From: a virus
IMG/VR virus record: IMGVR_UViG_3300046007_005844
Coordinates: 1 to 25,657 of that record
Reading direction: 5' to 3' (one strand)
Length of the DNA stretch: 25,657 nucleotides
Of this stretch, positions 11,167-18,401 are shown piece by piece. The notes beneath the pieces are model-generated. The model did no database searches, was not told the origin of the DNA, and saw only the letters and a list, made by a program, of their open reading frames with translations. Each line of letters begins with the position of its first letter. Within the stretch, counting starts at the first letter, position 1. The translations under genes and the position numbers were made by a program.

Positions 11167-11427
11167 TTATTTGTATTTAGATGATACAAATGTATGCACA
11201 ATAATAGATGTAGCAATACCAAAAGCTCCGCCAAATACAAACGCTACGCTTTCATAGACGGTTGCATTAGGGGCGAGTTTAAGCATGAATAATTGACACA
11301 ATCCAATACCTAATGAAGTGATAAAGGATTGTAGGATGAGTTTATCTCTAACGAATTGCGACTGAGTTCCTAATAAGAATACAGCCACAAATGATGATAT
11401 AAATAAAACTAAGCTAGACTGGTACAT
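11167..11427 (-). CDS. Small membrane protein with three predicted TM segments (86 aa)
   Basis: Hydrophobic segments at about 4-20, 30-49 and 60-81, a short charged loop (QSQFVRDK) after the first, the segment FITSLGIGLCQLFMLKLAPNA and a basic C-terminal VSSKYK. Size and topology are compatible with a class I holin, and similar small membrane proteins with '..QSqfV......s......n....k.aP.a..' occur near phage packaging genes. Without lysis neighbours the holin call stays open. Its ATG lies inside the end of the GIY-YIG gene (14-base overlap). Confidence 0.65.
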   Translation of the reverse strand: MYQSSLVLFISSFVAVFLLGTQSQFVRDKLILQSFITSLGIGLCQLFMLKLAPNATVYESVAFVFGGAFGIATSIIVHTFVSSKYK

Positions 11428-12181
11428 TATTTGATTCCATAAGTTGTTGTGTAATTGTTAGTTTTAATTGTTTGCGTTTTTCACAAGATAAGGCTATTTT
11501 AGCTTTCGTCTCATCTGAATGAGGTTTGCGCGGTCTACCTGTAGCTAATGCTGACAGTTTAGCACGCGTTGCATCTGATACAATTTTACCTTTCTGAGAT
11601 TCTGATAATTTGATGCGAGTTTCATTAGAAAATACTTTACCTTTCTGAGATTTCGACATCTTAGCTCTGGTTTTATCAGATATATTTTTTGAAGATTCTG
11701 ACATTTTAGCTTTGGTTTCATCAGAAATAATTTTACCAGAGTTGAACATTGAAATTTTTGCTTTTGTTTCATCTGATACAACTCTACCTTTACTCGATAA
11801 TGATATTTTCGCTTTATGCTCATCTGACCTATTTTTTGCAGCATTAGACATTTTAGCTTTAGATTCTTCAGAATGTTTATAGCCTGAGTTACCTTCACCG
11901 CCATCTGTTAAATTAGCCAACTTAATTCCATCATTTCTTAAAGCTGTAATTAGTCTGACTTCTAAATTAAGCGCGTGTTGTTCATCTCTACATAACATTG
12001 TTCTAACGATTATGTTTTCAATACCGTATTTTGCAACAATGTGAGTGTGATGTGGGTTTGCTTTACGCAATTTTTCTTTAGTTCTTTTAAGAGTTCCCTT
12101 TCCAACATAAAATGGAGGTTGCCCTGCTAAAGAATGCGTATAAACGTAATAATCTTGTGTTTTTGATTTTACTTCTGACAT
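11414..12181 (-). CDS. GIY-YIG homing endonuclease with NUMOD3 repeats
   Basis: 255 aa. N-terminal GIY-YIG domain about 10-100: YYVYTHSLAGQPPFYVGKG (the YVY...YVGKG motif), then conserved LEVRLITAL with the metal-binding Glu and a NLTDGGEGNSGY end. Residues about 103-245 hold about eight tandem NUMOD3 DNA-binding units of 15-19 residues (pattern S.ETKAKMS.S.KGK). This is the layout of T4 Seg-type free-standing homing endonucleases. It sits between the PAPS-reductase-like gene and the membrane protein gene, with its own promoter (12283-12311) and structured leader. The tail ends MESNNVPV. Confidence 0.9.
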   Translation of the reverse strand: MSEVKSKTQDYYVYTHSLAGQPPFYVGKGTLKRTKEKLRKANPHHTHIVAKYGIENIIVRTMLCRDEQHALNLEVRLITALRNDGIKLANLTDGGEGNSGYKHSEESKAKMSNAAKNRSDEHKAKISLSSKGRVVSDETKAKISMFNSGKIISDETKAKMSESSKNISDKTRAKMSKSQKGKVFSNETRIKLSESQKGKIVSDATRAKLSALATGRPRKPHSDETKAKIALSCEKRKQLKLTITQQLMESNNVPV

Positions 12182-14712: not shown

Positions 14713-14785
14713 TTGGTCAATGTGTCAGAAAATTGACTATAGGTAGGGGTTGGTCGAATTGGTCGAATTGGTCGAATTGGTAAAT
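14713..14785. repeat. Short tandem repeats of TTGGTCGAA in a gene-free region
   Basis: Three perfect, adjacent 9-bp copies (14750-14776), a fourth degenerate copy (14777-14785) and an isolated TTGGTCAA at 14713-14720. They lie in the roughly 380-base gene-free stretch between the metallophosphoesterase gene and the 57-aa gene. Apart from the promoter at 14611-14640 and the terminator at 14885-14911 I see nothing else there. Iteron or operator function is possible. Confidence 0.6.
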
Positions 14786-14875
14786 TCGGTGAGATTGTAG
14801 AAGGTGGAATGATGTAACCGCTCCCCAAAATAAAATTCACCCTTGCTACCCCGTATCATTTCAATAAATTAGGCG

Positions 14876-17467: not shown

Positions 17468-18085
17468 TTAAGTTTCCCAAGCAAAATTAAAATTGAATCT
17501 TGATGGTTTTTCAATTTCGCTCAAACGACTATTGAGAATAGTAAGCTGCTCATTAACTTCCTTATGAAATTTTGCAATTTCGTTCATTTTTAAATCGTAT
17601 TCGGTGCGCGTGATAAAATTTGAACTGTGTTCCAAAGTATTATAAGCATTCAACAAACAGTTTAAGAAATCGCCGTTAGTGATATTGCGCTTATGTTTCG
17701 ATGTAAATCGCAATTTGGCTTGTTTAAACGCTTCTATTGATTTTGAGTTAGTTAATCTTAGAACACCGTTATTACTGCTAACGCGCTCTTTTTCTCCACT
17801 ATATAAATTTACCAAATTGTAACCATAAGGATAAATTGAATTATGTGCATTTATCATTTGTTTTTCTAACAGACGTGCTTCTGATTCAGTAGGTATATTT
17901 TCTAATAATATCTCATGTTTAAAAGAATCCCATCCGAAGTGCTGGATAGCTACGGAGAAAGCAGTACTTCCTGAGTTCTTATTTCGATGCTCTTTACATC
18001 TTTGCTCATAATGCTTTGTCATGCCAATGTATGACTTACCTTCAGGTGATGTGTGTGTATAGATTACATAACTATTTTCGTTCAT
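17468..18085 (-). CDS. GIY-YIG homing endonuclease, second copy
   Basis: 205 aa. N-terminal GIY-YIG domain about 5-95: YVIYTHTSPEGKSYIGMTKH gives the two motif strands, followed by RCKEHRN (the conserved Arg of the active site) and EARLLEKQMINAH with the metal-binding Glu. The domain closes with YGYNLVNLYSGE. Residues 110-205 lack NUMOD3 repeats and contain helical, Lys-rich and coiled-coil-like segments, probably for DNA binding. Not closely alike to the first GIY-YIG gene outside the domain. It is placed just after the structured RNA region, converging with it. AAGGA, 6 bases from the ATG, is the ribosome site. Confidence 0.85.
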   Translation of the reverse strand: MNENSYVIYTHTSPEGKSYIGMTKHYEQRCKEHRNKNSGSTAFSVAIQHFGWDSFKHEILLENIPTESEARLLEKQMINAHNSIYPYGYNLVNLYSGEKERVSSNNGVLRLTNSKSIEAFKQAKLRFTSKHKRNITNGDFLNCLLNAYNTLEHSSNFITRTEYDLKMNEIAKFHKEVNEQLTILNSRLSEIEKPSRFNFNFAWET

Positions 18086-18091
18086 AAAAAA

Positions 18092-18202
18092 TCCTTAAAA
18101 AGACTGTAAATAATAGAAGTGTGGAAAGATATTGTAGTAATCTAATCTATTAAAATACAGTCCTTTTAAGGACGTTCTCACCACAATATCAGGTTTCCAC
18201 AC
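18092..18202 (-). promoter_or_regulatory. Structured leader of the second GIY-YIG gene that can bury its ribosome site
   Basis: Message order: A 18202-18183, B 18172-18156, A' 18135-18119, B' 18108-18092. A (GTGTGGAAA, bulge CCT, GATATTGT) pairs with A' over 17 bp. B (TCCTTAAAAGGACTGTA) pairs with B' (TACAGTCTTTTTAAGGA) over 17 pairs including one G-U. B' ends with the AAGGA ribosome site, so the B-B' helix covers it fully. B can also fold on itself (GTCC/GGAC). A-A' and B-B' interleave, so they are alternatives or a pseudoknot. The rest of the gene-free stretch to the regulator gene (18243-18351) shows nothing I can name. Confidence 0.7.
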
Positions 18203-18213
18203 CGTTAGCAAGT

Positions 18214-18242
18214 ATTATTTCATATTTATCACAGAATGTCAA
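18214..18242 (-). promoter_or_regulatory. Promoter of the second GIY-YIG gene
   Basis: -35 TTGACA (18242-18237), 17-base spacer, -10 AATAAT (18219-18214). Predicted start near 18207, just before helix A. The context TGAAATAATA around the -10 is shared with 12283-12311. Confidence 0.7.
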
Positions 18243-18376: not shown

Positions 18377-18401
18377 GACCTAGAATTCTAAATTCTAGGT
18401 C
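18377..18401 (-). terminator. Intrinsic terminator after the 132-aa gene
   Basis: Perfect 11-bp stem GACCTAGAATT / AATTCTAGGTC with a 3-base loop, followed on the minus strand by GTTTTT. It is flanked by an outer 8-bp pair, TTTGATAG 18352-18359 with CTATCAAA 18401-18408, and an adjacent small hairpin TAGCG/CGCTA (18357-18371). Confidence 0.85.

Follow-up and report, generated by a model that had tools for sequence, protein, structure and literature searches.

The leader of GIY1, a free-standing GIY-YIG homing endonuclease gene of a phage, can adopt two alternative long-helix folds, one of which buries the ribosome-binding site, and the same design stands before endonuclease genes in two other phages (L026 and L010 below). 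Both folds, the order in which they appear, their recurrence and the paired changes in the helices were obtained by computation. The arrangement is real and recurrent and looks functional, and on balance we think it somewhat probable that it is a cis-acting RNA of two conformations which controls translation of the endonuclease. In this proposal the helix A-A' would admit ribosomes, whereas the hairpin made of B-B' and C-C' would exclude them, and we infer that the two folds govern translation in the cell.

The GIY1 leader and its two folds

The window, i.e. the whole stretch of DNA that was analysed, is an entire IMG/VR record of 25,657 bases. Its terminase and primase share 42-44% and about 26% identity, respectively, with counterparts from siphoviruses of about 60 kb. 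The product of GIY1 contains the GIY-YIG catalytic domain (PF01541 above cut-off), and the gene is absent from the corresponding place in the related phage L010, which is compatible with cutting of, and copying into, an allele that lacks GIY1. The gene, its leader and the signals upstream are as follows:

17468..18085, minus strand: GIY1, free-standing GIY-YIG endonuclease gene, 205 aa (ORF; Pfam PF01541, E 7.6e-11; PHROG homing endonuclease)
18091..18108, minus strand: segment B', including the Shine-Dalgarno AAGGA at 18096-18092
18111..18117, minus strand: segment C', UCUAUUA (UCUAAUA in L026 and L010)
18118..18140, minus strand: segment A'
18146..18152, minus strand: segment C, UAAUAGA; partner C', lengthens the B-B' hairpin (6 of 1,000 shuffles)
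18156..18173, minus strand: segment B, carrying the anti-Shine-Dalgarno UCCUU; partner B' (18 bp)
18160..18173, minus strand: B's own hairpin GUCCU-UAAA-AGGAC, in the A-A' state (1 of 1,000 shuffles)
18178..18203, minus strand: segment A, at the predicted 5' end of the transcript; partner A' (23 bp, 3-nt bulge in A)
18214..18242, minus strand: predicted sigma70-type promoter, TTGACA-17-(TG.)AATAAT, extended -10 (consensus match only, 11/12)
18377..18401, minus strand: intrinsic terminator of the upstream 132-aa gene (11 pairs, then GTTTTT)

From the usual promoter spacing, the GIY1 transcript is predicted to start near 18206, about 3 nt ahead of A. There is an extra weak promoter match at 18211, and a transcript from there would still include B. 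An earlier reading of the stretch, made from the sequence only, had named a transcript start downstream of B as what would refute its proposal of a switch; the sequence does not support such a start, the predicted promoter placing it before A. By consensus prediction, the terminator at 18401-18377 stands between the 132-aa gene and the GIY1 promoter with its leader. The 132-aa gene, to which no function was assigned, has two stacked, similar promoter matches ahead of it (window 18907 and 18870, minus strand). TTGACA promoters with a TG-extended -10 were seen before several minus-strand genes (window 12311, 8315, 7158, 6395, 11165 and 18242), and this may be the main promoter type of the phage.

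In the transcript the segments follow one another as A-B-A'-B', with C between B and A' and C' between A' and B', and the ATG of GIY1 (18085-18083) lies downstream of B'. The coordinates on the minus strand bear out the interleaved arrangement described in the sequence-only reading, as well as its B-B' helix with one G-U pair (put at 17 bp; we count 18 bp with a terminal G-U) and its placing of the whole AAGGA inside B'. The A-A' helix had also been put at 17 bp, with one bulge; the pairing and the bulge stand, but the length had to be revised to 10 + 13 = 23 bp around a 3-nt bulge. The two helices had moreover been described as competing. Neither helix takes a strand from the other, however, since no nucleotide belongs to both A and B, and A-A' and B-B' would exclude each other by topology alone.

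When folding was forced to be nested, the energies of the A-A' and B-B' folds were -35.1 and -38.0 kcal/mol in GIY1, -46.5 and -46.8 in L026, and -31.2 and -43.6 in L010; B-B' is the lower fold in all three leaders, and the two energies are nearly equal in GIY1 and L026, not in L010. In the folding of growing prefixes, A-A' had a probability of 0.96-0.98 in the three leaders once A' was just out (0.98 in GIY1). At full length the probability of B-B' was 0.89 in GIY1, 0.56 in L026 and 1.00 in L010, the last of these being led by A-A' in prefixes of 104-122 nt and flipping after B' emerges. B is able to form a hairpin of its own in all three leaders; that of GIY1 (GUCCU/AGGAC) is present while A is paired with A'. 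The Shine-Dalgarno is unpaired with a probability of 0.03 (GIY1), 0.17 (L026) and 0.00 (L010) at equilibrium and of 0.30-0.41 in the A-A' state (0.30 in GIY1), which makes "open" a relative term and limits the earlier claim that A-A' alone leaves B' free to a partial truth.

The C-C' helix (7 bp in GIY1 and L026) lengthens the B-B' hairpin in all three leaders. Once closed, it leaves 5 + 0 (GIY1) or 4 + 0 (L026) spare nt around A', and since 4-5 nt are too few to span the 23-bp A-A', the A-A' and C-C' states should, by geometry, exclude each other in these two leaders; in L010, which has a large loop, their coexistence seems possible. Along nested paths, the barrier from A-A' to B-B' amounts to 29.7 (GIY1), 35.2 (L026) and 17.9 (L010) kcal/mol. 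Because such barriers are too high, a spontaneous timer is unlikely to operate during infection unless there is a pseudoknotted path or a helper, and this mechanism was set aside as weakened by nested barriers of 18-35 kcal/mol. Exchange of competing mRNA helices by branch migration is possibly faster in cells, according to PMC2817708; the helices of the present leader, however, share no strand.

Long complements of this kind had been judged very unlikely to arise by chance, and the shuffling tests agree. The interleaved ungapped stems of GIY1 reach -18.7 kcal/mol, the best shuffle -15.0, and the observed value was attained in 0 of 10,000 dinucleotide shuffles (0 of 1,000 under the Shine-Dalgarno constraint); the ungapped stems of L026 likewise gave 0 of 10,000. 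The interleaved helices of L010 were not equalled in 1,000 shuffles by a gapped score, and the strict ungapped statistic, matched by 2,997 of 3,000 shuffles, misses this leader because its B-B'-C-C' stem runs on by G-U pairs into A'. For GIY1, L026 and L010, respectively, the C-C' helix was found in 6, 6 and 17 and the B hairpin in 1, 9 and 3 per 1,000 shuffles. Folding of the GIY1 leader gave a minimum free energy of -36.7 kcal/mol for the mRNA strand and of -25.1 kcal/mol for the opposite one, with z scores of -5.2 and -3.8, respectively.

No other 124-nt window of the record, on whichever strand, scored as high as the GIY1 leader, with 1,703 windows compared for each strand. In a scan of start sites in 207 records (1,213,740 bases, some overlapping), the L026 GIY-YIG gene, GIY1 and the L010 endonuclease VII/HNH gene took ranks 1, 2 and 4 among 1,821 distinct Shine-Dalgarno-plus-ORF starts, rank 3 being L134, a putative frame that begins with TTG; the scanned DNA was enriched in endonuclease genes by prior searches, and the ranks hold within the set, not as a frequency in nature. 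A gapped test of 100 endonuclease leaders and 24 control genes set L026 and GIY1 far apart from the rest, with weaker-helix energies of -30.1 and -26.1 kcal/mol (best shuffles -14.1 and -15.3); other low p values came from L094 and L040 (p up to 0.01, long gapped helices) and from one control (0.04). It could be argued that AT-rich phage DNA forms many weak stems (shuffle mean -9.1), but with 0 of 10,000 shuffles in two phages and a design that recurs before endonuclease genes, chance pairing is a practically negligible explanation.

The same design in two other phages

The first of these, L026 (record IMGVR_UViG_3300020045_005555), was initially picked among 88 scored leaders of GIY-YIG relatives; the best 80 of 231 such relatives had been taken, L003 and L005 were left out as copies, and several of the 88 are near-copies. 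The L026 gene encodes GIY-YIG plus NUMOD3, its product being 45% identical to that of GIY1 over 86 aa, and the gene content of its phage is otherwise unlike that of the window. A TTGACA-17-TAATAT promoter with TG is followed by A right after the predicted start, and then by B, A' and B' with the Shine-Dalgarno. The second, L010, is a related phage (primase 56% identity) in which a sliding scan flagged the design before a 311-aa endonuclease VII/HNH-type gene, behind a TTGACA-18-TATATT promoter with TG. Its leader segments are, in order:

A = CUGAAACCGU
B = ACUCCUUAUAUG
C = UUAUUAGA
A' = ACGGUUUCAG
C' = UCUAAUAA
B' = CAUAUAAGGAGU

B of L010 forms its own hairpin ACUCC/GGGGU. GIY1, L026 and L010 all have a TTGACA promoter with a TG-extended -10 and a predicted start just ahead of A. 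Recurrence of the design before endonuclease genes in two other phages supports the sequence-only reading, which had suggested a comparison with leaders of related free-standing endonucleases.

Comparison of GIY1 with L026 indicates how the helices are kept. A-A' measures 23 bp in either leader: both partners differ in 13 of these pairs and a single partner in 1, 9 pairs are identical, and pairing is nowhere lost. In the flanks of B-B', where 14 pairs were compared, 11 are identical, 2 have both partners replaced and 1 has a single partner replaced. These counts come from a hand alignment by structure, MAFFT alignments being poor; pair-by-pair homology of A-A' is assumed, and the paired changes rest on few sequences (three members). 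Random reordering of the letters of A' restored the 23 pairs in 0 of 20,000 trials, which shows complementarity, not ancestry. The alignment of promoter plus leader between GIY1 and L026 beats 1,000 of 1,000 shuffle pairs, and that of the transcribed part alone 996 of 1,000. The internal oppositions in the four helices of GIY1 and L026 comprise eight G-U and no A-C on the mRNA strand, besides one U-U in L026; G-U without A-C is suggestive of selection on RNA, although the search itself permitted G-U on that strand and the observation is thus not independent.

Searches for further members were made in several ways. When the phage collection was queried by blastn with the leaders of GIY1, L026, GIY2 (the second GIY-YIG gene of the window) and L010, no homologous leader was found, the only matches being of 26-39 bases. 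A pattern scan of viral DNA gave 4 matches, all chance; another gave 84 stretches, all of which were scored and of which the L026 record alone passed; two further scans gave 3 matches each, namely the L026 record with two lacking a start codon, and three of which none is a leader. The scan patterns would miss L010, and the design has at least three members. Seven named relatives of the L010 gene, all of the endonuclease VII type, were scored as well, and only the Flavobacterium elemo leaders L210 and L209 came out marginal (3 of 200 shuffles each). In the Flavobacterium elemo phages L210 (639-766), L214 and L215, the leader of an HNH endonuclease has interleaved arms, CCGCCAAG / CTTGGCGG and ACCCTCTTTATAGT / ACTATTTAGAGGGT; these leaders are identical in the three, so no covariation test is possible.

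Two candidates were rejected. L011 was strong at first scoring, but it lies beside a group I intron: in this Streptococcus phage Str-PAP-1 sequence (1091-1377), the GIY-YIG gene comes directly after a group I intron match. GIY2 (11414-12181), which shares the promoter type of GIY1, has an ordinary interleaved score (p 0.157; 847 and 512 of 1,000 shuffles), and alignments of its leader to the others are no better than chance (275, 623, 289 and 130 of 1,000 shuffles).

Some other features were noted in passing. The leader of GIY2, a NUMOD3 gene, forms an 8-bp 5'-terminal stem around two hairpins (window 12278-12182, minus strand) and its ribosome site is not strongly buried. A further GIY-YIG leader, L091 (1336-1488), has a TTGACA promoter and two A'-like copies (AGCAATACA) seen by eye, with p 0.11 in the gapped test. 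A 35-base intergenic element is shared between the window (14779-14813, minus strand) and L010 (2696-2730) at 91% identity, while most of the flanking DNA is not alignable, and tandem copies of CCAATTCGA adjoin this element in the window.

A possible switch and alternative explanations

The mechanism that we propose would work as follows. From the proximal promoter, A would be transcribed first, followed by B, C and A', and A-A' would pair before B' exists, with B in its own hairpin and the anti-Shine-Dalgarno tied up. This would be the ON state, in which the ribosome site is mostly available. In the OFF state, B-B' and C-C' would join in a single extended hairpin, with the Shine-Dalgarno and some of the start region buried in it. 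From the two-state switch of the sequence-only reading we keep the pair of rival long helices, with the ribosome site hidden in one of them, and recurrence strengthens this point; the freedom of B' is retained in part, and the absence of a precedent is not retained.

The promoter regions of L026 and L010 contain one more segment, Z, whose sequence complements the inner portion of A together with the linker that follows (1 of 1,000 shuffles each); there is none in GIY1 (421 of 1,000 shuffles). When 45 nt or more of upstream sequence are included in L010, A-A' drops from 0.96 to 0.00 at the point where A' comes out. L026 responds less strongly at equilibrium, with 0.94-0.97 for up to 60 nt of upstream sequence and 0.31 for 300 nt. 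The gene upstream of the L026 leader ends within the -35, with no terminator-like match between, and the one before the L010 leader extends to the promoter, upstream of which there is a single terminator-like match, weak and rich in G-U. Z is thus present in 2 of 2 cases where read-through is expected and absent in the 1 insulated case (GIY1, with its strong terminator), three cases being too few for proof. In L026 and L010, Z would capture A in read-through transcripts and bring about the OFF state, and translation would be limited to transcripts from the endonuclease's own promoter; in this manner Z could silence read-through transcripts in the two leaders that lie directly behind a gene. 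Read-through transcripts of GIY1 would form A-A' too (0.98), and as Z is lacking there, a gate by transcript origin fails to explain GIY1. Commitment by folding order, gated by transcript origin, would fit L026 and L010, and for GIY1 the candidate control inputs are a host or phage factor, loss of A from the 5' end, or an unseen promoter.

The occurrence of the design before unrelated endonuclease families suggests that a regulatory part travels or is re-invented. It is conceivable, and we hold this idea only tentatively, as rather doubtful, that promoter and leader together make up a mobile cassette common to unrelated families (GIY-YIG, endonuclease VII/HNH), which licenses translation by transcript origin and folding order. 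If so, the same coding message would be silent or active according to the position of its 5' end. A leader peptide was also considered and rejected: in GIY1 an open frame of 35 codons runs from a GTG to the Shine-Dalgarno, but the frames of L026 have only 25 codons (from TTG) and 8 codons (from ATG), and in L010 no frame reaches 8.

Several other explanations of the helices have to be weighed. As the segments do not overlap, A-A' and B-B' might coexist as a large H-type pseudoknot in which the ribosome site stays closed and has to be opened by a protein, a helicase or an RNase. The duplex energies of GIY1 are -25.8 and -25.4 kcal/mol, and we estimate that their sum exceeds either nested fold unless the loop penalty is large; A lies at the predicted 5' end, which makes threading possible, and the loop of L010 is long enough for A-A' and C-C' together. 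We nevertheless find such a lock unlikely: by our reckoning C-C' in GIY1 and L026 leaves 4-5 nt around a 23-bp helix, which is sterically impossible, and a single pseudoknot explains neither C-C' nor the separate hairpin of B. Activation by RNase III is another option, in which cleavage in A-A' would remove B from the message and free B' for ribosomes. The geometry would allow it, since cuts in both strands of A-A' would free the B-C segment, and leaders activated by RNase III have precedents in lambda and E. coli; it predicts no need, however, for B's own hairpin or for Z, and appears very improbable to us.

It might also be that B-B'/C-C' is simply a sequestering hairpin that lowers translation, A-A' being merely a 5' stem that protects the mRNA or is processed by RNase III, an enzyme for which 20 bp of stem would make a plausible substrate. 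That B-B' is the lower fold in all three leaders would agree with this, as would the 5' stem with which the GIY2 leader (12278-12182) likewise begins and the silencing of T4 segB, mobE and I-TevI by such hairpins (PMC2988022). Left unexplained, however, are the position of A' inside the B-B' loop and of A outside it in all three leaders, B's own hairpin and Z, and the T4 feature of a promoter inside the hairpin is absent among the sigma70-type matches; we consider this explanation quite unlikely. Finally, the inverted repeats could be DNA-level signals, namely recombination sites or operators, the latter e.g. for repression of the endonuclease by itself. I-TevI acts in this way on its promoter via an operator (PMC2988022); A overlaps the transcript start, and Z and A form an inverted repeat that spans the promoter of L026 and that of L010. 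Against this, the internal mismatches are 8 of 8 G-U on the mRNA strand with no A-C, and the repeats differ in sequence between phages yet keep pairing, which leaves a DNA-level role with a very low probability.

Comparison with known regulatory leaders

Homing endonucleases must stay quiet in the phage transcription programme and yet appear early enough to spread. The arrangements known to achieve this combine a single hairpin with a T4 late promoter; the leader described here, compact at about 120-140 nt, would meet the same need by the order of RNA folding, without a late promoter. Rfam 15 at the gathering cut-off gave 0 matches in the window and none in L026, and at E up to 5, with the L010 leader included, it gave weak matches only, none relevant. 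The open-access literature that we searched yielded no description of a homing endonuclease with a leader of this kind.

The T4-type leaders (I-TevI, I-TevII, I-TevIII and segB, and mobE of phage Aeh1) have a single hairpin over the ribosome site, relieved by a late promoter that starts inside the hairpin, as set out in PMC2988022. The present leaders resemble them in hiding the ribosome site of a phage homing endonuclease within an RNA helix, B-B' covering the AAGGA of the endonuclease gene in GIY1, and the aim may again be silence on transcripts initiated upstream (PMC2988022). They differ from the T4 type in that both arms of the closing helix and the antagonist helix A-A' lie downstream of the promoter; a search for sigma70-type promoters, which may miss phage-specific ones, found no match starting between B and B' in the GIY1 leader.

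The lambda cIII leader has two mutually exclusive mRNA folds, one of which occludes the ribosome site (PMC4166951). Two alternative folds, one hiding the ribosome site, are likewise found in our three leaders by predicted nested energies, but here the helices use separate, interleaved segments. In the MS2 maturation-gene leader, closure is delayed by a 5'-terminal fold that forms early, and the ribosome site is hidden once the final fold is reached (PMC6582335). In prefix folding the 5'-terminal structure of the present leaders, A-A', also forms first, before the closing fold; unlike the small hairpin and weak trap of MS2, this early helix is up to 23 bp long, with nested barriers of 18-35 kcal/mol, and the values for the three leaders (29.7, 35.2 and 17.9 kcal/mol, nested paths) do not suit an MS2-like trap that relaxes on a biological time scale. 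Pseudoknots, too, regulate phage genes (PMC3014915), and T4 gene 32 and riboswitches provide examples of H-type translational regulators. The interleaved A-B-A'-B' order in the leader is shared with H-type regulators, from which the present leaders differ by helices of 18-23 bp.

The view that an interleaved double-helix switch has no known counterpart can hence not be upheld as regards its logic, for which the T4 endonuclease hairpins, lambda cIII and the MS2 leader are precedents. What is known is the logic; what is different is the use of interleaved, strand-independent helices, the hairpin of B, and the occurrence before different endonuclease families.
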